In this document: piece by piece, positions 3,209 through 64,000 of the stretch | How the letters are laid out: each line of letters begins with the position of its first letter | Numbering within the stretch: the first letter of the stretch is position 1 | DNA from: Xiphophorus maculatus | Lineage: Eukaryota; Chordata; Actinopteri; Cyprinodontiformes; Poeciliidae | Length of the DNA stretch: 64,000 nucleotides | Assembly: GCF_002775205.1 (NCBI RefSeq) | Contig: NC_036460.1 | Span: 20,726,751 to 20,790,750 of the forward strand | Direction: 5' to 3' | The notes under the pieces: model-generated | The model's database searches: none | The model's input: the letters and a program-made list of their open reading frames with translations, nothing else | What the model was told of the DNA's origin: nothing | Made by a program: the position numbers and the translations under genes

Positions 3209-3239
3209 TTTATGCGTAACCCTGGAGATGTTGTTTCGC

Positions 3240-16600: not shown

Positions 16601-16740
16601 CGCCGGTGTTTGAGGCTTGCCGTCTGACGCTCCTGTTTTGCTTTTGTCTGCTGTCCGCTTTTAAGTTTATTACAAGTGTAAACTCGCTCTCTGATTGTGT
16701 ATAACAATGACCTCTATTTTGTGAAGTGCACCCGTTGCTC
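16566..16740 (+). mobile_element. Possible 5' end fragment of another LINE
   Basis: GGGAAGATGGCGCCGG at about 16590 resembles the YY1-type 5' end of fish LINE elements. It abuts the minus-strand LINE. An 11-bp perfect inverted repeat (CCACCCACAAG 16566-16576, CTTGTGGGTGG 16581-16591) lies at the junction. The assignment is weak. Confidence 0.3.
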
Positions 16741-17107
16741 TTGCAGCAGACAATCCATTTAAGATGATCCTACCACTCCTGAACATTTGGGATGGGGCCA
16801 AGTTATTATTACTCTCTTCTGCCCAAACTTGAAAAAGGCTTAACCTGTGAAAACTTTGTCTTTCCTTCTGTGACTTTAGGCAAATTCAGGTTGATGACTG
16901 TGGATGAACATTTTGATTCGATTTGATCTATGTTAGAGTGTAGTTAACTTCTGAATCTAAATAAAAAAACCAAAAACATGTAATCCATCGTTCTGGCATT
17001 TATCAAATAAAATGACTTGTAAGCTCAACTGACCTAAAACAACGAACGTTTAAGATGATTTACTGTTTTACAGGACAATTAAAAATGTTTTTTAAAGGGT
17101 ATGTACA
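16741..17107. other. Intergenic, nothing recognised
   Basis: AT-rich sequence without splice-site pairs, coding character or a known repeat. Confidence 0.4.
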
Positions 17108-17300
17108 ATCTGGTTACAATAGCATTCAACCTGCTTTCCAGAAAACGTTTTTTTATTACATTATTTATACGCTAAATATCTGATTGTAATCGCATTCAAC
17201 CTGCTTTGCTTTCTAGGAAACCTTATTTCTTTTCTTCTCTTTTTACACAGTGTACTACAACAGCGTTCAACCTGATTTCCAGGAAACCTTTTTTTTTTTT
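17108..17300 (+). repeat. Three diverged direct repeats, about 75 bp apart
   Basis: The motif (A)AT/CAGCATTCAACCTGCTTTCC followed by AGAAAAC or AGGAAACC and a T run occurs three times (about 17118, 17190 and 17262). Substitutions among copies are few: GCATTCAACCTGCTTT, GCATTCAACCTGCTTT, GCGTTCAACCTGATTT. The repeat lies just upstream of the putative snoRNA host transcript, so it may belong to its promoter. Its role is unknown. Confidence 0.6.
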
Positions 17301-18713
17301 AAGTACTTGCAGTTTTGATTCTAGATTAGCGAGGGGCGCTGATGAGCTTGTTGTTGATTAGAACAGCCCCAGAAGAAACGTTCTAAAGCAGAGAAGAAGA
17401 AGAAAGATGCCGATGGTCCACGTCGGTTAAGGTAAGCAGGAAGTAAGGGTTAGAGGTAAAACCTCGTGAAAATGTGGTATTCTTTAAAGATTTGAAAGAT
17501 GAACAGATGGAATTGCCGCATCCAGCTCATTATAAGTAATTTAACTGCGTGTTAAATCTAAATTTCTTAATTTCTGGTGCGAATGCGGGCACAGGACGTG
17601 GCTCTTCACGGTTGTAAATGCATTATAAAGTGATGATGGCGTGTCTCCTGTGAATGTATGTGTTGCTTATAGTGTTTACAGATCGGTAAATAGTTACAAT
17701 ATTGCTGTGCATCCTTTTCTCTTGTGACACAGGAGGAGAGTGAAGCCGGTGGCCTGATGCCAGCCATCAGCCAGGCTACAGCAGATGCTACAACAGATGC
17801 TACACCACGCTGACCCGCTGCTGGCAGAGGTGAGGAGGGGCAGCGTGCATATGGTGCTGGGTTGATGAGGAGAGTCGATTCAAGTCCCATCTCTTGAGTG
17901 AAACCAGATTGTAAATAGTATGTTTTTAGTAGGTTTTGTTTTTAATAATCAGCATGTCTACTGTTAAACTTTGCGAATGTTACGAACAGAAAAATGAAGC
18001 AGCAGCAGCAAAGCTCCGTTTGCCTGCTACATTGTCAGGATTAATACCACAAAGAGGAGGAAGCGTTTGTGAAAGACGTGGACTGTGTTGTATTCTGTGA
18101 TCTACTTTGGGTTTAATTTTCTCCAACAAATGTAGCTGGTGTTGGTTGGTTGCACGCCACAATTCAGGAGGCAGCACATACGCACACACGTATTTACTGC
18201 CCTCATGTGGCAGCAGTAAGAAACACCACAGGGGAGCGTCACAGGACGCATTTGGAAGCTTCTGATTGTGTTTGCTGGCTTTTCCACTAAGAATTTGTGC
18301 CTGCAGAACTTCACGTAATGCATAACGTAAAATAATTTTGTTCGTTTGTATACTGCCATTTCACAACGGATGTTATGAACTTTACAAGACAATTCATATT
18401 GAAACACATAGAATCCATAGAGTCCAAATTCATGTCAAATCAGTCTGATTTATTCCATTATAAAACAGTAATAATCAGAAAATATTGGGTCTGAACAATA
18501 TGGCATCACTATGTATTTAAGGTAGTGTAATGGTTTTCTGAACTGCTAGGATGGCTGTTCAAATATCTTTTTTAATTTTTAAAGGGTATCCTAACATCCA
18601 CACACCAAGCATGCTTTGAGTGCTTTAGTTCTTTAATCTTGTTGAATTATCACCACAGAACATGTTACTAGCCATAGTGTGTTTAAAACCGCATGTTTAT
18701 AGCATGTTTCTGG

Positions 18714-18850
18714 ATGCATGGCTGAATTCTGTGTTACTTTGGATGTAGTAAATACAGTCAGACACCATGCTAAATTACTGCTCTCACAAACTGACACGAC
18801 AAGATCAGAGTGGTCATTATGTCCCTCGTTCTTACGTCAGAGTGACAACA
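18714..18850 (+). ncRNA. H/ACA-type snoRNA candidate 1
   Basis: The first hairpin has a lower stem GCATGG (18716-18721) with CCATGC (18765-18770), pocket strands CTGAATTC and GTCAGACA, and an upper stem TGTGTTACT pairing with AGTAAATACA. Fifteen nucleotides after the upper stem comes a perfect H box AAATTA (18772-18777). A second, weaker hairpin has a basal TCAC/GTGA stem. An ACA follows at 18845-18847, three bases before the proposed end. The 14-16-nt spacing rule is met. The target RNA and the snoRNA name are not known to me. Confidence 0.6.
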
Positions 18851-19085
18851 CGTTGAAAAAATTTAAATCTCTGTTTGCATCACTGATACAATCAGTGAGG
18901 CTTTCCCTACAGTCTGCTCTGCTTTTCATTCGTCAGAGTCCTGCAGCATGTGATTGAGCTGTACTACACCCGGCGGCTGCTGTAACTGACCCGACCTTCT
19001 CGCAGGACGGTATGTTTTACTCTCACCGTTAATGGTCACACACGTTACATAATTACTGCGATCAGTGGAAAGGAAAGGTGACCCG

Positions 19086-19220
19086 TGGCACGGCTGAATT
19101 CTGCTCCAGCTGGGCTCTGTGCTGGACACAGTCAGACACCGTGCAACAGCCTCGTCTCATTTCTGCCAAAAACAAAATCACCTGGGCAACTGCTTTCCTC
19201 AGCTTTGTCTGGCTACACAG
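19086..19220 (+). ncRNA. H/ACA-type snoRNA candidate 2, paralog of candidate 1
   Basis: It shares the pocket strands GGCTGAATTCTG and ACAGTCAGACACC with candidate 1, while the stems differ by compensating changes: lower stem GCACGG (19088-19093) with CCGTGC (19139-19144), upper stem TCCAGC with GCTGGA. The H-box position holds ACAGCC, one base off ANANNA. The second hairpin has AGCC (19148-19151) with GGCT, TGCC with GGCA above, and then ACA at 19215-19217, three bases before the end. Confidence 0.6.
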
Positions 19221-19660
19221 GAATGAGTACAGTGATGTACTTGACATTCATGATAGGTTTCTAGAAATTAATTTTCCTGCCGTATTTTCCAGCAGGGCGC
19301 CCAGTTTCCAAACGGGAAGAGACTCGACACTTTCATCTGTGGTAACTACACTTCACTGAAATGCCTTTTCCCTCTTTTTCTTTAGGCAATCACAAAGTAA
19401 TTGTCTGTGGCATTATTATTATTATTATTATTACAACATTTAAAAACTACATGTTACATCTAGTTTCATGTAACACAATAACTTTTCAGACCTTTAGACA
19501 GCCAGATCGCACATGAAGCTAAAAACAGACACAGCAGGGCCACCCCTGAACAGGAATGAGGAAGACCTTGTGCCAGAAACAAGCCCTCTGTGACCTGTGG
19601 TGTTTTCTGTGACCCCTTGCCCCCACTCCTTCATAATAAAGCTGTCACTGTGCTGAAACC

Positions 19661-20211
19661 AACCCTGTGTGTGCTGCATTTGTGTAGTTGGAAACAAAGC
19701 GCTCTGGGAGAGATGCATAAAACACATCCAAAATATCTTCACCTCAAAGACACAACCTTCAAATAAATGGAAGGTTTAATAAATATGTTTGTATTATGCA
19801 AATTAAAGTAATCTCTTATGAGAGCAATTGTCATTATGCGATCTTTTTAGCCTGAAGAGTTTCAAATATACAAGTTCACTGAATTTTCAGCCATCCAGGC
19901 ATTTTGGGGAAAAAAAACAAGCTTTAAAACTAAAATCTACATACTGGTCTTACAGTAAGTGAATAAATAGTCTGACAAAAGATGAAGACTTGACTCAGCG
20001 CCTTGGAGGCGACATTCACCTAAATTAAGAACTTACTTTCCAGAACATTCTCTGCTTGTTCAAAACAGAAATCCAAAAGCCTCTCTTGCATAGAAAGCTT
20101 TTGAAGCACGTCCTCCAAACTTTAACATTCAAAGAACATCCGAGTTGGGCTGTATTTTAGTTTACCAGTTCAGTTTCTTGAATAGATGTGATTCCCAGTC
20201 CTGCGGGTACA
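19661..20211. other. Intergenic / phkg1 3' UTR
   Basis: No coding exon. It probably contains the 3' UTR of phkg1, which ends at 20212 on the minus strand. TTTAAT at about 19775 gives ATTAAA on that strand, a weak candidate poly(A) signal. Confidence 0.4.
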
Positions 20212-27811
<7,600 letters not shown>

Positions 27812-30143: not shown

Positions 30144-33100
30144 TCAAGAAAAACCTAAAGAGACAAAAAAAAGTTCACTGAGAGGTGTGTTCTACTTTGT
30201 GAATAACAGGAAATATCCTTCCATAGATTATATTATAAATACAATAAGCAAACCAGGAATGAGGCTTAAAAAGTCACACTACTCCCCCTAGTGGTAGTAT
30301 TGAATAATGCAACACCGTCTTCCATAATACTGCAAAGTCACCCCGAGTCCTATTTTACTCTCTCAAACTACTCTTCTCATTTTGTTATCCCCATCAGAAA
30401 AAAAAGATGGATAGAGGAAAATGTAAATGAGCTTTTATTAAAAAATATAACTATGACAGCTTGCCATTTCTTAATTACTGCACAATCTAATGTGACAATT
30501 GTGCAACAAACTTTGCATGTGTTCAGTGTTGTATTCAATCATTTGAATGAAAAGTTGAGTGGAAGGTAAAGGTTTGATTAAAAGCGGTGTTCCTGTGTCA
30601 ACACCAGGAACACCAGTAGCAGAGGTTTTTGAAGCAAAGCAGTTTAAGGAGTTTGGAGGTGATTCATAAGATGTGGGCTGTGGCTGGACTCAGAGCTTCA
30701 AGTGCCACCCGACACATACGTATTCACAACATGGACTACAACTGTCACGTTCCTTGTTTTAAAGCCACTTCTAAACTGCAGCCATTATCAGAAGCGCCTT
30801 AATTAGACTAAGGAGATAACGGATTGAGTCTTCAGAGACAGAAATAGGATATCTATAAGGAAATAATAGAGCACCTCATGCGTCCTTCTGTCAAGCTTTG
30901 TAGAGATGCTGATTTTTTTTTTTCAAGAGGACTTGAGATGTCTTCAAACTCCTAAAAGTATCTGACCATTGGTTTTTGATTGGTCAACAATGTTGGGGTG
31001 ACCTCAAACAGTCTTTGGAAAATTGTCAAGAGGAAGATGAATGACAACTAAAAGTTAATGCGGAAGATCTGAAGGTCGCATAAAAGCAAACTGGGCTTCC
31101 TCAACACCTTAGCAGAACTGCAGGCTGATGTCCTCCATGCTACGCTGCATTAGTGCAGTAATTCATGCAAAAGGAGCCTAAACCAGTTTCAGCCCGTACA
31201 TTCAGTACACAATGTATTAAAATTTGATTTCCGAATCACATGCAGGAGGAAAAGGAAAAGCAGAAGGCTTGGATTTTATTGAAGAATCTAACTTTATTTT
31301 AAATATATTCTATAAAAGCATTTAGCATTTAGATTATGCACTGGTAAGGAGATAAAACTTTAAATTGACTGTTTTTTAAATAGAATTAAAAAAATTATAA
31401 AGCTACATTGGCAAACAGATTCAGAAATAACCAGAATTTGTTTATTTATTGTATTTTTTTGCGTATGTACACTTACCATTAGCAGACCTGCACTGTTTGA
31501 GTACCTCGCTGAATCCCTCACAGAGCTTCAGGTCACTCTGGTTCTGAGCACATTCCAGGAACTGCTTGAGTTCGTAGGAGCAGACCTCCTGCTGCTGCTG
31601 GCCTGCTTGCTGCTGGTACGGCTCCTATGGACAGAAACCACATGAAGATGTGCTGACAGACCCACTGAATGTGTAGAAAGAAACTTTTTGTGTCTGCAGT
31701 TCCTTCCAGAGATATAATTCTTACAGTACAAAGTGTAAAACACAAGTCGGGCTTACATGTGTTCCACTTAAGATGTTTATCTCATTACAAGCAATACTTC
31801 CAGGCTGCATTTCATATATTTTCCTGTTTTTGTTGTCAAATGTGCTTCTTTTTCTTTTAATTTTGTTCCTGCATTCATCTTTCAAGTATTGTTATTTGCA
31901 CTTACATATTTTAGCTCTTAAACATTTATTTACATAGAAATGCAGAGAAGGTTAATTCTGGTGTATGCCAACAGGTGTGTTTTTGAACTCGACTTCTCGA
32001 TTTGAACTGACTCCATTGTTTTCTTTAAAGAGGTTATTCTTGCTTACAGTACTGAATCTTTATCATCTCTTCACTGATCCAAACAAGAGCTTTAGCTGTC
32101 ATGTACACTTTATCACCTTTCTTTACTGGATCTGTGATTAAAGTCCTGCCAGCTGTCTGGTAAACAAAATAATCTTCTCTAACACGATCCTGGTATCCCA
32201 GCAGGCTGCTCGTCGGTTTACCTGGTACGTGACGTCAGGATTGGCAGCCTCAGAGCGTCCTCCGCTAAAGGCTCCGGTCATAGCGTGGCCGATGGTGTGT
32301 CCCACGGCAGAGCCCACCGCCACACCGGCGGCCGTCGATGCCATCTGTGCGAACAAACCTGGCTGTCTGGGCGCTGCAGCCGGAGCGCCCACTGCAGACG
32401 GAGCGGCCTGCATGGGGACCGGGGCGTGAGATGGTGCACTGGCCATTGGTGGAGGTGATGGTGGTGCCCGGCTGTGAAAAGTAAATTTCAATTTAAAAGG
32501 TCAATTAACTAGAGGCCAAACTTAAAAGTACAAAACTGTTTTTTGCTAGCAGAGATAATGTTAAAAATTAAATCTGCGCCACTGTGGACTAATAAACTAA
32601 AATTAAATATGGGGTTTAATAATACAGGGGTTTGTTCACAACGAGTTTTTCCCATTTGGAAAAAAATAAATGTACAAATTACACAGCAGTGCAGCCTGGT
32701 GTTGTTTAAGGTCACTGACTTGGAGGTTTCTTCAGGTTGTGTTACACAGCAGAGTTGGTCAGACTAAACATCACTGTTCATTATGTTGATGTGCACTTCT
32801 ACACTTAAAAAAAACACCAGCTAGACTATTAAGCCACCAGGTTTTCAATAACCTAAATAAAAACAAAAAACTATTTATATCCAAAACAATGTTACCTCAG
32901 TTTCAGATACAACCAGTATCTTGGGTGAAATATCTGTGTAGCCTTAATGTCTATATGCGTTTGTATTCTTTATAAATATAGAATACAAACGCTGGTTTAA
33001 ATAGAAATGTTCGTTGCTGTAAGACGTTTTAGCGCAGTGTGACCTTCAGTCCTTTCAGTCGATCACGTCTGGAACAACTAGATTCTCTGGTTAAAACATA

Positions 33101-34221: not shown

Positions 34222-37018
<2,797 letters not shown>

Positions 37019-50253: not shown

Positions 50254-50888
50254 ATGCCTAAACCAATCAGATGCAACAAGTGCGCCCTTTCTTCTTCAGA
50301 GCTATAAAACCGCTCCTGATTGAGTTCATTAGATAAGTAAACAACATTAAACATCACTGTGATGTTGCTGGTGAATGAATAAAAGCCTCAGTGATAATGG
50401 GACGCTCTGCCTGGCTGCCTGGGTTTCGATGGGATTGTAGAAAGAATTGCAAAACAATCACCTCATCCCTGCTATTGTAACTTCCACCCACAAGTCCGGA
50501 TTCCTGACTTGTTCGCTTGGTTTCACGTTTGCTGAGAGCCGGAATCTGGCCCGTCAGGATTTGTCTTCAGATGAATGTTTGCACAGGTCACATGAAAACC
50601 ATGAACAGCTCTAATAAACAGAATCAGACTCTTTTCCACTTTGCAGCTTTATACTCATATTGTAATTGCAAGTTTTACAAAAAAAAATGATAGAAATAAT
50701 TGTTCTTTTTTGTTAAGCTTCGTGAAGCATGGCAGGAGGTGGAGGTGGCGCGGGATCGTTCGCAGCAGCTTCAGGCTCAGGTGGAGGAGCTGCAGGAGGA
50801 GGTGTCCCTGCAGGACAGCAGGACCCACTTGGATGCCTCCTTGCTATCAGAGCTGGAGGCGGCAGACTGGGGCATCAGCAAAGAACAG
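40865..50888 (+). CDS. bicdl2: BICD family-like cargo adapter (BICDL1/2 type), first 300 codons, 3' end not in window
   Basis: Five exons in phase 0 are visible: 40865-41110, 42753-42968, 49133-49252, 50029-50175 and 50718-50888. Exon 1 encodes MEPLHEWSFKPKKLELEEDF and then LLAALKQKEEEVILAAQLGN, which holds the CC1 box AAxxG (Ala52-Ala53-Gln-Leu-Gly56) used by BICD-family adapters to bind dynein light intermediate chain. The following exons are almost pure coiled coil (HELRLKLEGCQSQWESQVGE, VERAMSSELQALKEELQQKG, QEVEVARDRSQQLQAQVEEL) and end in a DASLLSELE motif, as in BICDL1 ('SLLSEIE'). The protein would link dynein-dynactin to cargo vesicles. Whether this is bicdl2 or the fish duplicate bicdl2l is not decided, so the symbol is tentative. 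The exon 5 donor (CAG|GTACAAG) is intact, but no later exon lies before the tandem array or inside it. Confidence 0.85.
45020..45470. mobile_element. Decayed Tc1-like transposon, minus-strand trace
   Basis: CATGATGCGGCTACCACCGT and GTTTCACTGTGGGGACGG at about 45405-45445 are the reverse complement of the Tc1 transposase segment around GGGSIM. The similar CATGATGCTACCGCCCCCAT at about 43374 marks another small remnant. No ORF survives. Confidence 0.55.
48127..48365. mobile_element. Non-autonomous hAT-type MITE with 8-bp target duplication
   Basis: The element (48135-48357) starts CAGGGGTCTCAAACTCCAGT and ends ACTGGAGTTTGACACCTGTG. Flanks are ATCTAAGC (48127-48134) and ATCTAAAC (48358-48365), an 8-bp target duplication with one change, as expected for hAT. 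There is no coding capacity. Confidence 0.85.
48476..48985. mobile_element. MITE-like element, copy B (relative of 441-1443)
   Basis: Termini TTTAAAGGGGTGGTATTATG and GCATAATGCCAGCCCTTTAA are inverted. The interior is collinear with copy A but lacks the nested insertion found there. Confidence 0.65.
50180..50249. repeat. (CA)n microsatellite abutting a splice donor
   Basis: The CA run begins four bases inside the intron: bicdl exon 4 ends at 50175 and the donor reads GTAAACACAC. Confidence 0.97.
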
Positions 50889-51269: not shown

Positions 51270-51323
51270 ATTAAGGATGTAAAACATCAGGACAAGCCAG
51301 GAGTCCTTTTGTTTTACATGTTG
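51270..51323 (+). pseudogene. 54-bp remnant of the array ORF at the left edge of the array
   Basis: Identical, but for one base, to 53505-53558 inside the 734-codon ORF (it reads ATTAAGGATGTAAAACATCA onward). It joins directly to the first base of unit 1 with a 3-bp overlap (TTG). It is the trace of an earlier unit lost by deletion. Confidence 0.9.
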
Positions 51324-51451
51324 TGCTTTTCCTCCAGTTGTGTGAAACACTTTATCTGGACATACATACAGGTGGACTACAAATTGAATAAGTTCATGGA
51401 AATGAGCATATTTATGAGTGACTTTTTTGGAGAACACAGATTTAATTGAGA

Positions 51452-51596
51452 TTTCCCTAGTGGGGTCATGAGGGGTGCTGGTGCCTATCTCCAGCTAACT
51501 TTTAAGGTGAGAGGCGAGAGAAAACCCTTTCCAGAGGTTCACCCTGGAGGTCGTCAGTCTGTCGCAGGGCAACACAGAGACAGACAGGACAAACAC
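51452..51596 (+). repeat. Dispersed teleost repeat piece within unit 1
   Basis: TTTCCCTAGTGGGGTCATGA, GGTGCTGGTGCCTATCTCCA and TCTGTCGCAGGGCAACACAG form a phrase seen across many fish genomes (from memory). It recurs at 57292-57436 and 63156-63300 as part of the larger unit. A related fuller piece lies at 56429-56645 and 62293-62509. Confidence 0.6.
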
Positions 51597-51597
51597 C

Positions 51598-51659
51598 TTG
51601 TGAATTTAAGTCAATAAATACAAAACTTAAATTAAGCATTTATTGACTTAAATTCACAA
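51598..51659. repeat. Perfect 22-bp inverted repeat in each unit
   Basis: Arms 51598-51619 and 51638-51659 (core TGAATTTAAGTCAATAAAT) are exact reverse complements with an 18-nt loop. The same hairpin occurs at 57438-57499 and 63302-63363. Confidence 0.95.
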
Positions 51660-51765
51660 ATTTAGATGTCTACGCATGCATTTTTAATTGACAGTAGTCT
51701 TATCTCATACATAACTCCTGGTGTTTCCATAGCAACTAAAACAAACAAGAACCTGACAGGTCATT

Positions 51766-51805
51766 TGACATCATCATATCATCGATGTTCTCATCGATGA
51801 TGTCA
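51766..51805. promoter_or_regulatory. Inverted CRE/ATF-like sites before the array ORF
   Basis: TGACATCA (51766-51773) and TGATGTCA (51798-51805) face each other around ATCATCGATG-TTCT-CATCGATGAT. They lie about 140 bp before the first ATG. Similar to CRE/ATF half-palindromes, but promoter activity is only a guess. Confidence 0.25.
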
Positions 51806-51944
51806 TAAAGGTTCAAATGATTATTATTATCATTTGGAATACAAGAATTCTCAGTTTGCTTTTCAACGACGTTGGAGGTACAACACTTTGATAGAGAGAC
51901 GATTTCGGACGGTGATTTTAGAAACCATTTCAACTGCAATCAAA

Positions 51945-54149
51945 ATGATTTTAACTATCGGTTGGGGCCTTGGGTTTCTTGTCACGAAGGGAGTAGAGAA
52001 GTTGCTGGGATATCGGATAAAAGATGAAGACATTTCAGCAGAGAGCTCAACTGACGAAAGTACAAAACACCTTGATTTAGACATTGTCGCCAAAGACAAT
52101 GTAAGACAAACTGATGTTTCAGCAGAGAGCTCATATGAAGATGAACGACATAAGTACTTTGGATTCGAAGATTTCTTTGAAGACTGTGTAAAACACCGTT
52201 GTGTTTCAGCAGAGAGCTCATCTGAAGATGAAGGATTTGAGTACTCTGGATTTGACATTATTGCCGAAGACAATGTGAAACACAGTGATGTTTCTGCAGA
52301 GAGCTCATCGGAAGATGAAGGACTTAAGTACTCTGATTTTGACATTGTCGCCATAGACAATGTAAAACACAGTGATGCCTCAGCAGAGAGCTCATCTGAA
52401 GATGAAGGATTTAAGTACTCTGGATTTGACATTGTCACCGTAGACAATGTAAAAGTCGATGGAATTTCAGGAGAATTTGAAGAGGATAAGACAGGAAAGT
52501 ACTTGGGTTTTGAAATTTTTCCTGAAGATCAGAAGGACATTGATGCTTCCTCTAAAGTTGAGGAAGTTGCCATCAATACGCATTTGACAGTCAACACATC
52601 TGAAAACACTGCTGCTTTGGAAAGCGTCTGTCTTCCTGATATCAAAATGGAGCTGGAATTGGAAATCTACTCTGGGGACAGAGAAATGAACATTGATGAC
52701 ACCTCAGAATACTTTGACGATTTTGTTGAACAAATGGCTATGAAAGAAAGCTGTGACAGCAAGGAAAGTCTGACGAATTTTGAAAAAGTCTTTGAAAATC
52801 CATCAACAGAAGAAACCGCTTCAGTTGATGTAAACACAATGGGTGAAATTAAAAATTACACGGACAACTTTGAGAACCTGGACACAAAAGATATGGATGA
52901 TTCACTTAAGGAAGTTGACTCTGGAAGCAAAAATGCTGCAAAGGTTGTGTCACATTTTGATGAAGTGTCTGAGTATTCTTCATCAGAAGAATGGTCTTCA
53001 GATGAAGAAAGCTCTATAGATGACATTGAAAATGAACCTGACCATTACGATAGCATTTACGCTAAGGACGTTGATGCTTCCACTAATGATGAGGAAGTTT
53101 GTTCTGGAAGCCCAAATGCAGAGGATATGTGGACAGAGTTTGGAGAAGTGTATAAGTTTTCTTCTTCAGAGGAATCGTCTTCTGAAGAAGAAAACTTAGA
53201 AGATGGAAATCCGAATGACACCGATGATTTCGACGCTATGGATGTAAATATTTACCCAGGAATGTACTTCTGCAAATTCTCCAACTCCTTTTTTAACAGC
53301 TGGATGAATGCCACAACACAAAGTACCATGAACTTGACTATTGTCAGAAGGTTTGTGGCTCAGTATCCTGAGGAGATTTCGGAACTTTTTGCAGAGACAC
53401 CATTGTTTGCGAGGTGTTTCTTTACAGCAATGTACCATCCAGGAAGAGACTTTCCTCCACATGAGATCTTTGCTGTTCAGAATGAACTCGTTGAAACTTT
53501 GAAGATTAAGGATGTAAAACATCAGGACAAGCCAGGAGTCCTGTTGTTTTACATGTTGCACTATCTGGCCCAGTGTGGAATCTACACAAACTCTAAGCTG
53601 TATACAACTGACCACTGTGAACAATGTCAGAAATGTTCACGAATTATTCGCAACCTTGGTCCTGTCATTCCTCTGCCAAAGGAGCAACAAAATGACACCA
53701 CATCAACTCTTCTGGAGAATTATTGGAGCAGAATGTCAGAAAGTTGCGACACCTGCAAGTCCAACAAAAAGAGGGATTGCTTTTTTAATGAAACTGATGT
53801 GATGACCCTGATTCTGCCATGGCCAGACAGTCCAGACGATATCAGACGACCTGTGATACCTGACCCAGTTCTTGACGTTCCTGTAAAACATGGAACTCAG
53901 TTATATCATCTGTCCTCCGTCATTTGCCGGAGACAGGAAACTACTTCTGACACCAGCAGCTTTTATACATATCTGGTGTGTGGAGAACTAGTGTTTAAGG
54001 CGGAGGATGAGCGGGTATCGGTGGAGAATATCGACTGTGGAGCTGACGTTTGCAGCAACGGGTATATCTACATCTACGAAAAAGCCACAGAAGGACGGGA
54101 CGAATACAGTGTAGGGCTCAAAGTGACAACTGACCAGCAACAAAGGTAG
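51945..54149 (+). CDS. Array ORF copy 1: acidic-repeat protein with diverged USP-like domain, 734 aa
   Basis: I do not recognise this gene by name. The frame is open from 51801, but the first ATG is 51945 (AAAATGA, good context). An unseen 5' exon could add residues. Residues 1-16 (MILTIGWGLGFLVTKG) are hydrophobic, possibly a membrane anchor. Residues 30-200 hold six repeats of about 29 aa around SAESSSEDEGFKYSGFDI. Residues 200-435 are acidic with Ser/Glu runs. Residues 441-713 resemble a ubiquitin-specific protease: SNSFFNSWMNATTQ aligns with the Cys box but has Ser452 for Cys, KHQDKPGVLLFYMLHYL with the QQD box, CEQCQKC (558-564) and CDTC (601-604) with the zinc ribbon, SSFYTYLVCG with the His box but Phe for His, and NGYIYIYEK with the terminal strand. 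Probably an inactive deubiquitinase-like protein. It has no introns, and the two full copies encode the same protein. Confidence 0.7.
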   Translation: MILTIGWGLGFLVTKGVEKLLGYRIKDEDISAESSTDESTKHLDLDIVAKDNVRQTDVSAESSYEDERHKYFGFEDFFEDCVKHRCVSAESSSEDEGFEYSGFDIIAEDNVKHSDVSAESSSEDEGLKYSDFDIVAIDNVKHSDASAESSSEDEGFKYSGFDIVTVDNVKVDGISGEFEEDKTGKYLGFEIFPEDQKDIDASSKVEEVAINTHLTVNTSENTAALESVCLPDIKMELELEIYSGDREMNIDDTSEYFDDFVEQMAMKESCDSKESLTNFEKVFENPSTEETASVDVNTMGEIKNYTDNFENLDTKDMDDSLKEVDSGSKNAAKVVSHFDEVSEYSSSEEWSSDEESSIDDIENEPDHYDSIYAKDVDASTNDEEVCSGSPNAEDMWTEFGEVYKFSSSEESSSEEENLEDGNPNDTDDFDAMDVNIYPGMYFCKFSNSFFNSWMNATTQSTMNLTIVRRFVAQYPEEISELFAETPLFARCFFTAMYHPGRDFPPHEIFAVQNELVETLKIKDVKHQDKPGVLLFYMLHYLAQCGIYTNSKLYTTDHCEQCQKCSRIIRNLGPVIPLPKEQQNDTTSTLLENYWSRMSESCDTCKSNKKRDCFFNETDVMTLILPWPDSPDDIRRPVIPDPVLDVPVKHGTQLYHLSSVICRRQETTSDTSSFYTYLVCGELVFKAEDERVSVENIDCGADVCSNGYIYIYEKATEGRDEYSVGLKVTTDQQQR

Positions 54150-54277
54150 TGCTTTAGACACATTTTGGAGGAAGTGGGTAGAACATGGCCCACACAGAGT
54201 AGGACATGTCCCTGCCTCCATTATCAAGGAGTCTGGGACATGTCCAAGGATTATTATGGGCAACGCTAGATCAGCTC

Positions 54278-55515
54278 GACATTTAGGAGGAATTATAATG
54301 GGACATTTGGGAGGAATTATAATGGGACATTTTTCAGGAATTATAATGGGACATTTGGGAGGATTTAATATGGGACATTTGGGAGGATTTTTCATAAATT
54401 TCCCATTATAATTCCTTACAATGTCCCATATTAATTCCTTTGGGAGGATTTAATATGGGACATTTTTGAGGAATTTATACGGGACATTTGGGAGGAATTA
54501 TAATGGGACATTTGGGAAGAATTATAATGGGATATATTTGAGGAATTATAATGGGACATTTGGGAATAAATAATATGGGACATTTGAGAGAAATTAATAT
54601 GGGACATTTTTGAGGAATTTATACGGGACATTTGGGAGGAATTATAATGGGACATTTGGGAGGAATTATAATGGGACATTTTTGAGGAATTATAATGGGA
54701 CATATGGGAGGATTTTCCCCAAATTTCCCATTATAAGTAATTCCAAATGTCCCATATTAATTCCTTTCGGAGGATTTAATATGGGACATATGGGAGGAAT
54801 TATAATGGGGCATTTGGGAAGAAATAATATGTGATGTTTGGGAGGATTTATTATGGGATAATTGGGAGGAATTATAATGGGACATTTTGGGGGAATTTCC
54901 CAAATGTCTTATTATAATTCCTTCCAAATGTCCCATATTAATTCCTTTCGGAGGATTTAATATGGGAAATTTGGGAGGAATTATAATGGGACAATTGGGA
55001 GGATTTAATTTTGGACATTTGGGAAGAATTATAATGGGACATTTGGGAAGAATTATAATGGGATAATTTGGAGGAATTATAATGGGATAATTTGGAGGAA
55101 TTATAATGGGACATTTGGGGGGAATTTCCCAAATGTCCCATTATAATTCCTTTGGGAGGATTTAATTTGGGACATTTGGGAGGAATCAATATGGGATAAT
55201 TGGGAGGATTTAATTTTGGACATTTGGGAAGAATTATAATGGGACATTTGGGAAGAATTATAATGGGATAATTTGGAGGAATTATAATGGGATAATTTGG
55301 AGGAATTATAATGGGACATTTGGGGGGAATTTCCCAAACGTCCCATATTAATTCCTTTGGGAGGATTTAATTTGGGACATTTGGGAGGAATCAATATGGG
55401 ATAATTGGGAGGATTTAATATGGAACATTTGGAAGGATTTAATTTGGGAGGAATTATATTTTGACATTTGTGAGGAATTATCATGGGACATTTGGGAGGA
55501 ATTATAATGGGACAA
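54278..55515. repeat. 24-bp minisatellite, both orientations, unit 1
   Basis: The unit is GGGACATTTGGGAGGAATTA plus TAAT. About 50 copies run in the plus orientation with variants (ATATGGGACA, TTGGACA, AATTTATACGGGACA). Inverted blocks containing CCCATTATAATTCC or CCCATATTAATTCC occur near 54405, 54725, 54900, 55130 and 55335, so the tract can fold into long hairpins. It begins about 130 bp after the ORF stop. AATAAA at 54565-54570 lies inside and could end the ORF transcript. Confidence 0.95.
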
Positions 55516-56428
55516 ATGTGGTGGAACGCGAATTTTGCATCATGGATGTACAGCCAACAGGTGTACCTAATAAAGTGGCCGGTGGTTGTATATACTAGTT
55601 TGTTGTTGTTGTTGTTGTTTTTGACAGGAAGCAGAGAAGACATGGGCAAAGATAGAGGGAGAGGACATGCAGCAGCAATCTTAACATCAGAAATCAGAGC
55701 CCAGACGGTTTCATCAATCATCCCAATCTGTTTGTCTCCCTTACAAGTTTCAGCTCATGAAAATATCATAAGGTCATACTATTAGGTTTCAAAAATCTTT
55801 CCTCCAGATAGGCTCGCCTCTTAAGGAGAGGCGGGTCTGCTACTTCCTCTGCATCAATACAGGTGGTACATTTCAAGCAAGAACCTGATTAACCCAAAGT
55901 GAGGCTGGAATAAGCTCACAGTGAAACTAAAGATGCTGGGTTGTTTCACTGGAATATTTAAATATTGTATATGAACAGTGCCAGCTTAGATGTGAATGAC
56001 GTGAGCCGCTTACCAAATAAAAGACTTCACACTGTTTTCGGTTAGGAAACATTTTAAGGGTTAGAATATTTGCTCTTAACACAGGTGACTGTCGCTGGAT
56101 CCTGCATCCTCCTTCATCAAAACCAAAAATAACTCAGTTTATGTAATACCCACTCTAAACTCAGCAGATGGTCCTTGCTGCAAGCTGATGCTTATGATAT
56201 ATTCCCTGATAGAAATACTTTTAGATGCATCAGTCAAATACAAACCTTTGCATCTTATTTCCATCAGCTCCCAGAAAAGAATAAGACATGTGGCACTGTG
56301 TCTTATTCTTTTTGTTTTGTTATTGTGTCAAGAGATGCAAATACTTTGTGTTTTGCAGAGGAATGAAGCTGTCATTCACTCCTCTGTTCTTCCTGTTTCA
56401 GAGTTATTACTTTTTGCTCACATTTTAA
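55516..56428. other. Unit 1 spacer after the minisatellite
   Basis: Starts with ACAGGTGTACCTAATAAAGT followed by GGCCGG, a phrase known from dispersed fish repeats (memory), then TTG repeats. AATAAA occurs at 55569-55574. No supported gene: frames are short and end randomly. Confidence 0.4.
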
Positions 56429-57784
56429 CATCCATCCTTCGATGATCTTACATGTTTATCCCTGTTGGGGTCATGAGGGGTGCTGGTCCCTATCTCCAGC
56501 GGTCAATGGGCGAGAGGTGGGGTTCACCGTGGGCAGGTCACCAGTCTGTCTCAGGGCAACACAGAGACAGACAGAATAAACAACTATGCACACACACACT
56601 CACACCTAAGGAGAACTTAGAGAGACAAGTCAGCCTGACAGGCAAACAAGCAGCTGCTAACTGCTCAACACATTTAAATATATTGACTTTATAGACAGAC
56701 TGAACTTCAACGATTTAGTTATTAAAATAATAAACTGCATCTCTAACTACATCACTGTCAACAGTGTTCATAATTTAATGTGAAAAGAAACAATTAATTT
56801 CAACACATAAAACAGTGGCTGAATAAAAACAGTTTTACCAGTCATTGGAAGTGGAAATATTCATTTCATAGGCATGGAAGTGGCACAGGCTATGATGCAG
56901 TGTGTTGCAACACTGAATGATGCACCAGCTTCTGGTCAGCAGCTTTGAATCAATGACAAAATATAATAGCTGCTGAAGAAAAACAGCTTCTGCCTTTGTG
57001 TTTTGTTAATGTTTGTGTGATGTGGCCAGCTCATCTTCTCTTGATCCTTAAGAAGATGTTTTCTCCTCCCTTTAGTCTCTTACACTGAGCTGCTTCCTCT
57101 TCCTGATGCTGAGCTGCAGATTGTGCAACACCAAGCATCTTGTCTGTAGAACTTGATACTTTGTGCTTTTCCTCCAGTTGTGTGAAACACTTTATCTGGA
57201 CATACATACAGGTGGACTACAAATTGAATAAGTTCATGGAAATGAGCATATTTATGAGTGACTTTTTTGGAGAACACAGATTTAATTGAGATTTCCCTAG
57301 TGGGGTCATGAGGGGTGCTGGTGCCTATCTCCAGCTAACTTTTAAGGTGAGAGGCGAGAGAAAACCCTTTCCAGAGGTTCACCCTGGAGGTCGTCAGTCT
57401 GTCGCAGGGCAACACAGAGACAGACAGGACAAACACCTTGTGAATTTAAGTCAATAAATACAAAACTTAAATTAAGCATTTATTGACTTAAATTCACAAA
57501 TTTAGATGTCTACGCATGCATTTTTAATTGACAGTAGTCTTATCTCATACATAACTCCTGGTGTTTCCATAGCAACTAAAACAAACAAGAACCTGACAGG
57601 TCATTTGACATCATCATATCATCGATGTTCTCATCGATGATGTCATAAAGGTTCAAATGATTATTATTATCATTTGGAATACAAGAATTCTCAGTTTGCT
57701 TTTCAACGACGTTGGAGGTACAACACTTTGATAGAGAGACGATTTCGGACGGTGATTTTAGAAACCATTTCAACTGCAATCAAA

Positions 57785-59989
57785 ATGATTTTAACTATCG
57801 GTTGGGGCCTTGGGTTTCTTGTCACGAAGGGAGTAGAGAAGTTGCTGGGATATCGGATAAAAGATGAAGACATTTCAGCAGAGAGCTCAACTGACGAAAG
57901 TACAAAACACCTTGATTTAGACATTGTCGCCAAAGACAATGTAAGACAAACTGATGTTTCAGCAGAGAGCTCATATGAAGATGAACGACATAAGTACTTT
58001 GGATTCGAAGATTTCTTTGAAGACTGTGTAAAACACCGTTGTGTTTCAGCAGAGAGCTCATCTGAAGATGAAGGATTTGAGTACTCTGGATTTGACATTA
58101 TTGCCGAAGACAATGTGAAACACAGTGATGTTTCTGCAGAGAGCTCATCGGAAGATGAAGGACTTAAGTACTCTGATTTTGACATTGTCGCCATAGACAA
58201 TGTAAAACACAGTGATGCCTCAGCAGAGAGCTCATCTGAAGATGAAGGATTTAAGTACTCTGGATTTGACATTGTCACCGTAGACAATGTAAAAGTCGAT
58301 GGAATTTCAGGAGAATTTGAAGAGGATAAGACAGGAAAGTACTTGGGTTTTGAAATTTTTCCTGAAGATCAGAAGGACATTGATGCTTCCTCTAAAGTTG
58401 AGGAAGTTGCCATCAATACGCATTTGACAGTCAACACATCTGAAAACACTGCTGCTTTGGAAAGCGTCTGTCTTCCTGATATCAAAATGGAGCTGGAATT
58501 GGAAATCTACTCTGGGGACAGAGAAATGAACATTGATGACACCTCAGAATACTTTGACGATTTTGTTGAACAAATGGCTATGAAAGAAAGCTGTGACAGC
58601 AAGGAAAGTCTGACGAATTTTGAAAAAGTCTTTGAAAATCCATCAACAGAAGAAACCGCTTCAGTTGATGTAAACACAATGGGTGAAATTAAAAATTACA
58701 CGGACAACTTTGAGAACCTGGACACAAAAGATATGGATGATTCACTTAAGGAAGTTGACTCTGGAAGCAAAAATGCTGCAAAGGTTGTGTCACATTTTGA
58801 TGAAGTGTCTGAGTATTCTTCATCAGAAGAATGGTCTTCAGATGAAGAAAGCTCTATAGATGACATTGAAAATGAACCTGACCATTACGATAGCATTTAC
58901 GCTAAGGACGTTGATGCTTCCACTAATGATGAGGAAGTTTGTTCTGGAAGCCCAAATGCAGAGGATATGTGGACAGAGTTTGGAGAAGTGTATAAGTTTT
59001 CTTCTTCAGAGGAATCGTCTTCTGAAGAAGAAAACTTAGAAGATGGAAATCCGAATGACACCGATGATTTCGACGCTATGGATGTAAATATTTACCCAGG
59101 AATGTACTTCTGCAAATTCTCCAACTCCTTTTTTAACAGCTGGATGAATGCCACAACACAAAGTACCATGAACTTGACTATTGTCAGAAGGTTTGTGGCT
59201 CAGTATCCTGAGGAGATTTCGGAACTTTTTGCAGAGACACCATTGTTTGCGAGGTGTTTCTTTACAGCAATGTACCATCCAGGAAGAGACTTTCCTCCAC
59301 ATGAGATCTTTGCTGTTCAGAATGAACTCGTTGAAACTCTGAAGATTAAGGATGTAAAACATCAGGACAAGCCAGGAGTCCTGTTGTTTTACATGTTGCA
59401 CTATCTGGCCCAGTGTGGAATCTACACAAACTCTAAGCTGTATACAACTGACCACTGTGAACAATGTCAGAAATGTTCACGAATTATTCGCAACCTTGGT
59501 CCTGTCATTCCTCTGCCAAAGGAGCAACAAAATGACACCACATCAACTCTTCTGGAGAATTATTGGAGCAGAATGTCAGAAAGTTGCGACACCTGCAAGT
59601 CCAACAAAAAGAGGGATTGCTTTTTTAATGAAACTGATGTGATGACCCTGATTCTGCCATGGCCAGACAGTCCAGACGATATCAGACGACCTGTGATACC
59701 TGACCCAGTTCTTGACGTTCCTGTAAAACATGGAACTCAGTTATATCATCTGTCCTCCGTCATTTGCCGGAGACAGGAAACTACTTCTGACACCAGCAGC
59801 TTTTATACATATCTGGTGTGTGGAGAACTAGTGTTTAAGGCGGAGGATGAGCGGGTATCGGTGGAGAATATCGACTGTGGAGCTGACGTTTGCAGCAACG
59901 GGTATATCTACATCTACGAAAAAGCCACAGAAGGACGGGACGAATACAGTGTAGGGCTCAAAGTGACAACTGACCAGCAACAAAGGTAG
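57785..59989 (+). CDS. Array ORF copy 2: same 734-aa protein as copy 1
   Basis: Identical in protein to the copy at 51945-54149. The one base difference noticed (T at 53499, C at 59339) is silent, TTG to CTG, both Leu. All domain remarks for copy 1 apply. Leader, hairpin and CRE-like pair are repeated in full, so each copy has the same putative control region. Confidence 0.7.
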   Translation: MILTIGWGLGFLVTKGVEKLLGYRIKDEDISAESSTDESTKHLDLDIVAKDNVRQTDVSAESSYEDERHKYFGFEDFFEDCVKHRCVSAESSSEDEGFEYSGFDIIAEDNVKHSDVSAESSSEDEGLKYSDFDIVAIDNVKHSDASAESSSEDEGFKYSGFDIVTVDNVKVDGISGEFEEDKTGKYLGFEIFPEDQKDIDASSKVEEVAINTHLTVNTSENTAALESVCLPDIKMELELEIYSGDREMNIDDTSEYFDDFVEQMAMKESCDSKESLTNFEKVFENPSTEETASVDVNTMGEIKNYTDNFENLDTKDMDDSLKEVDSGSKNAAKVVSHFDEVSEYSSSEEWSSDEESSIDDIENEPDHYDSIYAKDVDASTNDEEVCSGSPNAEDMWTEFGEVYKFSSSEESSSEEENLEDGNPNDTDDFDAMDVNIYPGMYFCKFSNSFFNSWMNATTQSTMNLTIVRRFVAQYPEEISELFAETPLFARCFFTAMYHPGRDFPPHEIFAVQNELVETLKIKDVKHQDKPGVLLFYMLHYLAQCGIYTNSKLYTTDHCEQCQKCSRIIRNLGPVIPLPKEQQNDTTSTLLENYWSRMSESCDTCKSNKKRDCFFNETDVMTLILPWPDSPDDIRRPVIPDPVLDVPVKHGTQLYHLSSVICRRQETTSDTSSFYTYLVCGELVFKAEDERVSVENIDCGADVCSNGYIYIYEKATEGRDEYSVGLKVTTDQQQR

Positions 59990-60117
59990 TGCTTTAGACA
60001 CATTTTGGAGGAAGTGGGTGGAACATGGCCCACACAGAGTAGGACATGTCCCTGCCTCCATTATCAAGGAGTCTGGGACATGTCCAAGGATTATTATGGG
60101 CAACGCTAGATCAGCTC

Positions 60118-61379
60118 GACATTTAGGAGGAATTATAATGGGACATTTGGGAGGAATTATAATGGGACATTTTTCAGGAATTATAATGGGACATTTGGGA
60201 GGATTTAATATGGGACATTTGGGAGGATTTTTCATAAATTTCCCATTATAATTCCTTACAATGTCCCATATTAATTCCTTTGGGAGGATTTAATATGGGA
60301 CATTTTTGAGGAATTTATACGGGACATTTGGGAGGAATTATAATGGGACATTTGGGAAGAATTATAATGGGATATATTTGAGGAATTATAATGGGACATT
60401 TGGGAATAAATAATATGGGACATTTGAGAGAAATTAATATGGGACATTTTTGAGGAATTTATACGGGACATTTGGGAGGAATTATAATGGGACATTTGGG
60501 AGGAATTATAATGGGACATTTTTGAGGAATTATAATGGGACATATGGGAGGATTTTCCCCAAATTTCCCATTATAAGTAATTCCAAATGTCCCATATTAA
60601 TTCCTTTCGGAGGATTTAATATGGGACATATGGGAGGAATTATAATGGGGCATTTGGGAAGAAATAATATGTGATGTTTGGGAGGATTTATTATGGGATA
60701 ATTGGGAGGAATTATAATGGGACATTTTGGGGGAATTTCCCAAATGTCTTATTATAATTCCTTCCAAATGTCCCATATTAATTCCTTTCGGAGGATTTAA
60801 TATGGGAAATTTGGGAGGAATTATAATGGGACAATTGGGAGGATTTAATTTTGGACATTTGGGAAGAATTATAATGGGACATTTGGGAAGAATTATAATG
60901 GGATAATTTGGAGGAATTATAATGGGATAATTTGGAGGAATTATAATGGGACATTTGGGGGGAATTTCCCAAATGTCCCATTATAATTCCTCCCAAACGT
61001 CCCATATTAATTCCTTTGGGAGGATTTAATTTGGGACATTTGGGAGGAATCAATATGGGATAATTGGGAGGATTTAATTTTGGACATTTGGGAAGAATTA
61101 TAATGGTACATTTGGGAAGAATTATAATGGGATAATTTGGAGGAATTATAATGGGATAATTTGGAGGAATTATAATGGGACATTTGGGGGGAATTTCCCA
61201 AACGTCCCATATTAATTCCTTTGGGAGGATTTAATTTGGGACATTTGGGAGGAATCAATATGGGATAATTGGGAGGATTTAATATGGAACATTTGGAAGG
61301 ATTTAATTTGGGAGGAATTATATTTTGACATTTGTGAGGAATTATCATGGGACATTTGGGAGGAATTATAATGGGACAA
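60118..61379. repeat. 24-bp minisatellite, unit 2
   Basis: Same as 54278-55515 with one 24-bp insertion and one G-to-T change (AATGGTACATTTGG near 61106). Confidence 0.95.
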
Positions 61380-63024
61380 ATGTGGTGGAACGCGAATTTT
61401 GCATCATGGATGTACAGCCAACAGGTGTACCTAATAAAGTGGCCGGTGGTTGTATATACTAGTTTGTTGTTGTTGTTGTTGTTTTTGACAGGAAGCAGAG
61501 AAGACATGGGCAAAGATAGAGGGAGAGGACATGCAGCAGCAATCTTAACATCAGAAATCAGAGCCCAGACGGTTTCATCAATCATCCCAATCTGTTTGTC
61601 TCCCTTACAAGTTTCAGCTCATGAAAATATCATAAGGTCATACTATTAGGTTTCAAAAATCTTTCCTCCAGATAGGCTCGCCTCTTAAGGAGAGGCGGGT
61701 CTGCTACTTCCTCTGCATCAATACAGGTGGTACATTTCAAGCAAGAACCTGATTAACCCAAAGTGAGGCTGGAATAAGCTCACAGTGAAACTAAAGATGC
61801 TGGGTTGTTTCACTGGAATATTTAAATATTGTATATGAACAGTGCCAGCTTAGATGTGAATGACGTGAGCCGCTTACCAAATAAAAGACTTCACACTGTT
61901 TTCGGTTAGGAAACATTTTAAGGGTTAGAATATTTGCTCTTAACACAGGTGACTGTCGCTGGATCCTGCATCCTCCTTCATCAAAACCAAAAATAACTCA
62001 GTTTATGTAATACCCACTCTAAACTCAGCAGATGGTCCTTGCTGCAAGCTGATGCTTATGATATATTCCCTGATAGAAATACTTTTAGATGCATCAGTCA
62101 AATACAAACCTTTGCATCTTATTTCCATCAGCTCCCAGAAAAGAATAAGACATGTGGCACTGTGTCTTATTCTTTTTGTTTTGTTATTGTGTCAAGAGAT
62201 GCAAATACTTTGTGTTTTGCAGAGGAATGAAGCTGTCATTCACTCCTCTGTTCTTCCTGTTTCAGAGTTATTACTTTTTGCTCACATTTTAACATCCATC
62301 CTTCGATGATCTTACATGTTTATCCCTGTTGGGGTCATGAGGGGTGCTGGTCCCTATCTCCAGCGGTCAATGGGCGAGAGGTGGGGTTCACCGTGGGCAG
62401 GTCACCAGTCTGTCTCAGGGCAACACAGAGACAGACAGAATAAACAACTATGCACACACACACTCACACCTAAGGAGAACTTAGAGAGACAAGTCAGCCT
62501 GACAGGCAAACAAGCAGCTGCTAACTGCTCAACACATTTAAATATATTGACTTTATAGACAGACTGAACTTCAACGATTTAGTTATTAAAATAATAAACT
62601 GCATCTCTAACTACATCACTGTCAACAGTGTTCATAATTTAATGTGAAAAGAAACAATTAATTTCAACACATAAAACAGTGGCTGAATAAAAACAGTTTT
62701 ACCAGTCATTGGAAGTGGAAATATTCATTTCATAGGCATGGAAGTGGCACAGGCTATGATGCAGTGTGTTGCAACACTGAATGATGCACCAGCTTCTGGT
62801 CAGCAGCTTTGAATCAATGACAAAATATAATAGCTGCTGAAGAAAAACAGCTTCTGCCTTTGTGTTTTGTTAATGTTTGTGTGATGTGGCCAGCTCATCT
62901 TCTCTTGATCCTTAAGAAGATGTTTTCTCCTCCCTTTAGTCTCTTACACTGAGCTGCTTCCTCTTCCTGATGCTGAGCTGCAGATTGTGCAACACCAAGC
63001 ATCTTGTCTGTAGAACTTGATACT

Positions 63025-64000
63025 TTGTGCTTTTCCTCCAGTTGTGTGAAACACTTTATCTGGACATACATACAGGTGGACTACAAATTGAATAAGTTCA
63101 TGGAAATGAGCATATTTATGAGTGACTTTTTTGGAGAACACAGATTTAATTGAGATTTCCCTAGTGGGGTCATGAGGGGTGCTGGTGCCTATCTCCAGCT
63201 AACTTTTAAGGTGAGAGGCGAGAGAAAACCCTTTCCAGAGGTTCACCCTGGAGGTCGTCAGTCTGTCGCAGGGCAACACAGAGACAGACAGGACAAACAC
63301 CTTGTGAATTTAAGTCAATAAATACAAAACTTAAATTAAGCATTTATTGACTTAAATTCACAAATTTAGATGTCTACGCATGCATTTTTAATTGACAGTA
63401 GTCTTATCTCATACATAACTCCTGGTGTTTCCATAGCAACTAAAACAAACAAGAACCTGACAGGTCATTTGACATCATCATATCATCGATGTTCTCATCG
63501 ATGATGTCATAAAGGTTCAAATGATTATTATTATCATTTGGAATACAAGAATTCTCAGTTTGCTTTTCAACGACGTTGGAGGTACAACACTTTGATAGAG
63601 AGACGATTTCGGACGGTGATTTTAGAAACCATTTCAACTGCAATCAAAATGATTTTAACTATCGGTTGGGGCCTTGGGTTTCTTGTCACGAAGGGAGTAG
63701 AGAAGTTGCTGGGATATCGGATAAAAGATGAAGACATTTCAGCAGAGAGCTCAACTGACGAAAGTACAAAACACCTTGATTTAGACATTGTCGCCAAAGA
63801 CAATGTAAGACAAACTGATGTTTCAGCAGAGAGCTCATATGAAGATGAACGACATAAGTACTTTGGATTCGAAGATTTCTTTGAAGACTGTGTAAAACAC
63901 CGTTGTGTTTCAGCAGAGAGCTCATCTGAAGATGAAGGATTTGAGTACTCTGGATTTGACATTATTGCCGAAGACAATGTGAAACACAGTGATGTTTCTG
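63025..64000 (+). repeat. Tandem array unit 3, cut by the window end
   Basis: Continues without visible change from units 1 and 2 through the leader into the ORF. The array extends past the window, so the copy number is unknown. Confidence 0.97.
63649..64000 (+). CDS. Array ORF copy 3, first 117 codons (partial)
   Basis: Same start codon and reading frame as copies 1 and 2, with no difference seen before the window ends within the fourth acidic repeat. Confidence 0.65.
   Translation, partial: MILTIGWGLGFLVTKGVEKLLGYRIKDEDISAESSTDESTKHLDLDIVAKDNVRQTDVSAESSYEDERHKYFGFEDFFEDCVKHRCVSAESSSEDEGFEYSGFDIIAEDNVKHSDVS

Follow-up and report, generated by a model that had tools for sequence, protein, structure and literature searches.

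The D4Z4 macrosatellite is built from a kilobase tandem unit that carries DUX4, and gene-bearing arrays of the RS447/USP17 type are known from mammals. In other settings, pseudo-enzymes of the ubiquitin-specific protease (USP) family have lost their catalytic residues while an intact protein is kept; Cys-to-Ser forms of USP-type proteases are inactive. Here we describe a tandem array of intronless genes for a USP-like protein on chromosome C18 of the platyfish, Xiphophorus maculatus. The array was found in a stretch of 64,000 nucleotides (C18:20726751-20790750, hereafter the window). The genome assembly comprises 101 contigs and 704,300,149 bases, and its chromosomes are written C2, C3 and so on. 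On balance, we think it probable that this locus is a small macrosatellite-like array of intronless genes for a catalytically dead USP-like protein.

In the parts of the source available, human RS447 (USP17/DUB3) is described with a unit of 4,746 bp, an open reading frame (ORF) of 1,593 bp, 20-103 copies, and 32 loci divided between chromosomes 4 and 8; in the chromosome-8 clusters, 2 of 3 genes are without an intact ORF or the residues needed for activity (PMC2874809). The initial annotation of the window had likened it to this system, and the architecture does match: in both, units of kilobase length lie head to tail and carry a single intact USP-like ORF each, blocks occupy more than one chromosome, and some copies lack catalytic residues. 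The fish array differs from RS447 in its size, in copy number, in the N-terminus of its protein, and in catalytic state. It has four assembled units rather than tens, a unit of 5.6-5.9 kb with its own minisatellite, and an ORF of 734 amino acids (aa) whose N-terminal part is a long acidic repeat region; all copies in the window lack both catalytic residues, the array is intronic, and the family lies on at least 14 chromosomes. The term megasatellite, applied at first, therefore suits the kilobase head-to-tail units but is generous for the number of them in the assembly. The best profile relatives of the fish family in the PDB are USP25 and USP28, at weak E values, and the likeness to USP17 is one of architecture; an origin independent of USP17, as first proposed, is plausible.

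With D4Z4/DUX4 the array has in common a kilobase tandem unit with one gene, and nothing more: the fish ORF has no homeobox (Pfam gives none at E<=10), and the site, at 20.8 of 33.4 Mb on C18, is not subtelomeric. The dead fish members differ from USP pseudo-enzymes in forming a young, amplifying clade, tandem and dispersed, alongside family members in which Cys and His are retained. No published account of such a gene family or array was found among the titles and abstract openings listed, which is weak evidence of absence.

Structure of the C18 array

Units in the window were delimited by exact self-comparison. This recovered what had been reported at the outset, namely two full head-to-tail units and the start of a third, each with the same 734-codon ORF, leader, and minisatellite. 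The features of the array, all on the + strand, are as follows.

51321..57160, +, tandem unit 1, 5,840 bp (exact diagonal match, offset 5,840)
57161..63024, +, tandem unit 2, 5,864 bp (self-comparison)
63025..64000, +, start of unit 3, 976 bp, cut at the window end (self-comparison)
51616..51944, +, leader, unit position 296-624, common to relatives on C3, C6, C4, and C14, partly on C2, and at ~75% on C5
51945..54149, +, intronless ORF copy 1, 734 aa, with a short hydrophobic N-terminus, acidic 29-aa repeats, and a USP-like domain
52033..52454, +, 87-bp coding repeat, in frame within the ORF (acidic, Ser-rich units of 29 aa), varying in unit number among paralogs
53259..54089, +, USP-like (UCH) domain of copy 1, from the family alignment and from Pfam via relatives
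54278..55514, +, minisatellite of unit 1, ~24-bp period (repeat scan)
55530..57160, +, inter-gene spacer, recurring at 96-97% on C20 and in three places on C3
57785..59989, +, intronless ORF copy 2, protein identical to copy 1 (ORF translation)
60118..61378, +, minisatellite of unit 2, ~24-bp period (repeat scan)
63649..64000, +, start of ORF copy 3, completed outside the window (own-genome search)

Units 1 and 2 encode the identical 734-aa protein and are distinguished by 3 substitutions and one 24-bp insertion or deletion in the minisatellite. A search of the platyfish genome placed two more full ORFs, the third and fourth, beyond the window on the same chromosome, so that the four ORF copies lie at C18 positions 20778695, 20784535, 20790399, and 20795966. 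The array ends within the fourth minisatellite, at window coordinate 71788 (C18:20798538), and spans ~20.5 kb in total. By coordinates, unit 3 measures 5,567 bp and is shorter than units 1 and 2. Its ORF differs from copies 1 and 2 by 1-2 coding changes, and copy 4 differs from copies 1-3 by 7-9. All 734 codons are open in 4 of 4 copies, which extends the claim of an intact intronless gene in each unit to the whole array, and the single unit that had been named beforehand as the result that would overturn it is not what the assembly shows. We regard the array of four head-to-tail units as real with very high confidence, although the count could be off in the assembly for the nearly identical pair of units 1 and 2. 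An AATAAA at 55569 is a candidate end for transcripts. The CpG ratio of the ORF (0.51) is close to the window background (0.48) and therefore gives no hint of hypomethylation.

USP ancestry and loss of catalytic residues

Evidence for the ancestry of the domain came through its relatives. Searching Pfam UCH (PF00443) over the genome recovered intronless relatives on C11, C24, and C23, at E values of 4.4e-9 to 1.5e-5 and over nearly the whole model. Homologs of the window domain on C11 (41-49% identity) exceed the UCH cut-off, with a best E of 7.8e-9, and UCH was matched at E<=1 by 20 of 22 aligned family domains, the best at 1e-11. A family profile run against solved structures returned 15 matches, 10 of them USP25/USP28 chains (E 0.069-0.55). 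In the three USP25 chains shown, the Cys and His that we take to be the catalytic residues of USP25 align, with weak scores, to the Cys and His columns of the family. None of 14 control genomes gave a match in the UCH search, a result of little weight for a family from fish.

Several results weigh against this assignment. The whole window ORF matched no Pfam family at E<=10, and the window domain alone reached UCH at E 0.017 with 15.2 bits, under the cut-off of 23.9. The structure matches are themselves weak (best E 0.069), 5 of the 15 are unrelated proteins, and the stretch of the USP25 His box scores -1.3 bits in the family-profile alignment.

Catalytic positions were read from an alignment of domains that held 31 rows, reduced to 25 when 6 near-duplicates were dropped beforehand; alignment A1 has 22 rows. 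In the window protein both positions hold Ser.

53298-53300, +, codon of Ser452, at the catalytic Cys position (alignment)
53958-53960, +, codon of Ser672, at the catalytic His position (alignment)

Across the 25 rows, the first column holds Cys in 13, and all 6 rows of the young clade to which the window copies belong have Ser there; His is kept in 9 rows at the second. Both residues are present in 6 rows (the first and second domains from C11, one each from C19 and C24, and two from C23), Cys only in 7 (C6, C4, and C14b), and His only in 3. The remaining 9 rows have neither, and these include all 6 of the young clade. Support for that clade is 93/100 (not starred), and long branches leave deep placements in the tree unsure. 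The window protein is very probably a pseudo-deubiquitinase, as far as alignment can tell. Because both catalytic residues are lost, USP as applied to the window copies denotes domain ancestry and not a demonstrated enzyme; the original label of USP-like stands for descent, through the UCH-matching relatives, and falls short at the catalytic Cys and His.

Family, selection, and spread

Relatives were gathered by tblastn of the window ORF against its own genome, with 61 of 366 candidates scored, and locus counts are lower bounds. At least 95 matches were obtained, which group into at least 52 loci spread over 14 chromosomes. Where the best match reaches >=90% identity, four loci lie on C18, five on C3 in two clusters, and one each on C2 and C14, and 11 of 11 keep an intact ORF of 676-734 aa; the absence of a conserved ORF, raised early on as a reason for doubt, is thus contradicted within the platyfish genome itself. 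Relatives at ~79-85% identity are on C6, C4, C14, and C15, several of them broken, and distant ones at 35-48% are on C11, C19, C21, C9, C23, C24, C18, and C14. Broken family relatives occur on C5, C6, and C15, all members examined are intronless, and small arrays besides that of C18 are present on C3 and C21. Relatives in viruses or prokaryotes were sought with two short patterns for each collection, and neither the 42 pattern stretches in viral contigs nor the 180 in genome contigs yielded a confirmed one, which weakens both candidates.

Copy pairs numbering 17 in all were compared for the ratio of non-synonymous to synonymous substitution rates (dN/dS); pairs share branches and are not independent. 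The USP domain gave dN/dS of 0.15-0.28 in 8 of 8 young-clade pairs, at dS of 0.04-0.14. Relative to a simple neutral simulation (kappa 2, no codon bias), non-synonymous changes were deficient in 7 of 7 pairs tried, with P from 0/4000 to 0.012. Since the young copies share the residue loss and yet show this low ratio and this deficit, the dead USP-like domain appears to have been constrained after the loss. Certain measurements count against constraint: the N-terminal part evolves faster than the domain, with dN/dS of 0.29-0.83, the highest domain value, 0.55, was seen in an older pair (C6_4817/C6_4600), gene conversion could mimic constraint, and the shared branches weaken the test.

These values bear on the possibility that the array is a non-functional selfish satellite, with the ORF riding in a spreading repeat and intact merely because its copies are young. 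Spread over many chromosomes, the broken relatives on C5, C6, and C15, and N-terminal evolution that is near-neutral in some pairs would all be expected of such a repeat. The low domain ratios and the simulated deficit are not, and with an assumed 50 neutral substitutions the ORF stayed stop-free in 12% of simulations, compared to the 11 of 11 young loci that are intact. We therefore hold a selfish satellite to be unlikely, and it is likely from the substitution patterns that the ORF has been kept by selection as a protein.

How the arrays arose is suggested by a scar at the junction between units.

51598..51659, +, junction scar, a 22-bp inverted leader copy that separates the leader from the end of a dispersed repeat (flank comparison)

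The scar is found in internal copies on C18 and C3 and in the single C14a copy, and it is absent from first copies. The dispersed repeat at the junction, which we presume to be LINE-like, has ~80-85% copies genome-wide, and on C20 its end is un-joined. A 10-bp word, ACAGGACAAA, occurs close to the breakpoint on either side. At the junction position, the first C3 copies and C2 have a different upstream flank. This flank, of up to 543 bp, also occurs in many C6 copies and in C14b and for that reason is taken as the older state. The C20 spacer copy had been a candidate for a simple source of the spacer; as it also carries the minisatellite, that role is weakened, and it may be a truncated copy or a pre-junction state.

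As the scar is common to C18, C3, and C14a, we infer that the C18 array, the C3 arrays, and the C14 copy trace to a single tandem-duplication event. In the proposed course of events, a single-copy intronless gene would have been the starting point, and the first C3 copies would retain its other 5' flank, as in C6 and C14. Tandem duplication would then have joined the dispersed-repeat end in the 3' flank to the gene's own leader, and template switching would have placed a short inverted, templated insert at the junction. Scar-bearing array segments may next have been copied to other chromosomes, one of them landing in the C18 intron, where the units stayed or became nearly identical. Divergence speaks against so simple a history. 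C18_2 differs from the internal C3a unit by ~2-9% in 300-bp steps of the ORF and by 1-4% in the spacer, and for the ORF the synonymous divergence separating C18 from C3, 0.10-0.12, exceeds that of the spacer against C3a (~1-4%). Because of this excess the history looks mosaic and is not fully explained; conversion or mixed ancestry is likely to have contributed.

A different origin, with the gene carried by a mobile element in retroposed or transposon-borne copies rather than duplicated as a host gene at the DNA level, would accord with the intronless state of the examined members and with dispersed single copies such as C2. Shared edges could be read in the same way, as seven C6 copies begin at upstream-query position 290 and C2 at 287, and the C2 copy stops before an A-rich stretch. 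Copies nonetheless carry spacer and upstream flank, beyond what a simple transcript would hold, and array segments begin and stop at differing points. Besides the USP-like ORF, the unit has two antisense frames among its ORFs of >=150 aa, with no transposase or reverse transcriptase recognised. No target-site duplication was seen at C2, and 6-bp shared words alone were seen at C18, which also weakens an autonomous transposon as the vehicle. We consider mobile-element cargo quite unlikely, and duplication of a host gene remains our preferred origin.

It is very unlikely that the window protein is an active deubiquitinase whose catalytic residues were misaligned or whose Ser or another residue serves instead. 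The domain is conserved, and members on C11 (domains 1 and 2), C19, C23, and C24 keep Cys and His. Invariant or near-invariant residues, however, flank the Cys column, near-invariant ones stand beside the His column, the USP25 alignment agrees with both columns, if weakly, and residue loss is found in other branches of the family too. Less likely still is an assembly duplication, with fewer real units and haplotype or repeat mis-assembly, since the near-identity of units 1 and 2 and apparent misassemblies elsewhere, such as on LG14 (PMC7642942, in the text available), are outweighed by private differences among the four copies, by the coding changes of unit 4 and the unequal length of unit 3, which show that one unit was not copied blindly by the assembler, by the identical internal junction in two C3 clusters on another chromosome, and by the lack of any N in the assembled stretch. 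According to the available text, PacBio long reads were combined with an optical map to give an assembly of 704 Mbp in 101 scaffolds, with 24 chromosomes (PMC7642942), and the long reads too speak against duplication in the assembly.

Several further members of the family were observed. On C21 (6.78-6.86 Mb), six related intronless ORFs have frames of 914-926 aa with two USP-like domains each, and in the copy examined (L048) the first domain lacks Cys and His. One 1,232-aa frame at C11:4365157-4368705 (L026, L027) holds three USP-like domains, the third without the catalytic Cys. Two distant relatives (L051 and L052) have a GFGLGYL-type N-terminal motif in common with the window protein, and hydrophobic stretches at their C-terminal ends resemble membrane segments. 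A second search with a C11 domain (107 of 180 candidates scored, again a lower bound) gave at least 108 matches. Many of these are short pieces at C5:30.4-31.3 Mb, and some of the pieces are broken. This region is a dense cluster of short, partly broken family pieces, with leader matches from 30.1 Mb. Five pieces at 30.875-30.889 Mb are spaced by 3,085 bp in 3 of 4 steps, and three at 31.120-31.124 Mb are ~2.0 kb apart; because of this regular spacing, gene fragments on C5 may have seeded new tandem satellites.

Genomic setting and possible role

The array lies within an intron 22.5 kb long. The host, a coiled-coil gene, is on the same strand, and its exons were read by eye from frame and splice sites.

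50718..50888, +, last exon of the coiled-coil host gene before the array, with a GT donor
51270..51321, +, 52-bp ORF fragment at the left array edge, 51/52 identical to 53505-53556
window coordinate 73406-73561, +, next host-gene exon, outside the window, with an AG acceptor

The ORF fragment at the left edge may be a sign of a complex insertion. We take the host gene to be BICDL-like; Pfam did not confirm this, its match being a weak one to GAS (E 0.0043) that falls below the family cut-off. The neighbouring genes at 5269-25223 and 32138-32500 are presumably NIPSNAP2-like (+), PSPH-like (-), a PHKG1-like kinase (-), and CHCHD2-like (-). The PHKG1-like neighbour matched Pfam Pkinase at 2.6e-10, the CHCHD2-like one gave a weak match to DUF2076 and nothing else in Pfam, and the PSPH-like and NIPSNAP2-like pieces had no Pfam match. 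Also in the window are a 166-aa ORF on the minus strand at 35950-36450, without a Pfam match, and a 31-bp minisatellite at 1813-3211, with ~45 copies and a 279-bp higher-order period.

If the array does encode a catalytically dead USP-like protein, that protein would act without ubiquitin hydrolysis, through its USP-like domain and its long acidic Ser-rich repeat region. It could serve as a decoy or scaffold that binds ubiquitin or a partner, and may compete with the Cys- and His-keeping members on C11, C19, C23, and C24. Such a role, which we hold to be less likely than not, would presuppose expression, ubiquitin binding, and competition. The same binding idea is floated for the inactive copies of RS447/USP17, in the part of that paper available (PMC2874809). 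A bolder version, which we judge distinctly improbable, is that a non-mammal vertebrate independently built a USP-based macrosatellite whose product is a natural Cys-to-Ser 'trap', its dose following copy number and its action opposing active relatives. If true, this form would bind ubiquitinated targets or partners without cutting them, in an arena such as the germ line, the early embryo, or host-virus conflict.

The shared architecture of the fish array suggests a tendency of intronless USP-type genes to amplify in this way. Because its copies are apparently dead and yet conserved, they can be used to probe enzyme dose against ubiquitin-binding dose, and as the platyfish is a laboratory model, expression, copy number, and knock-out are directly addressable.

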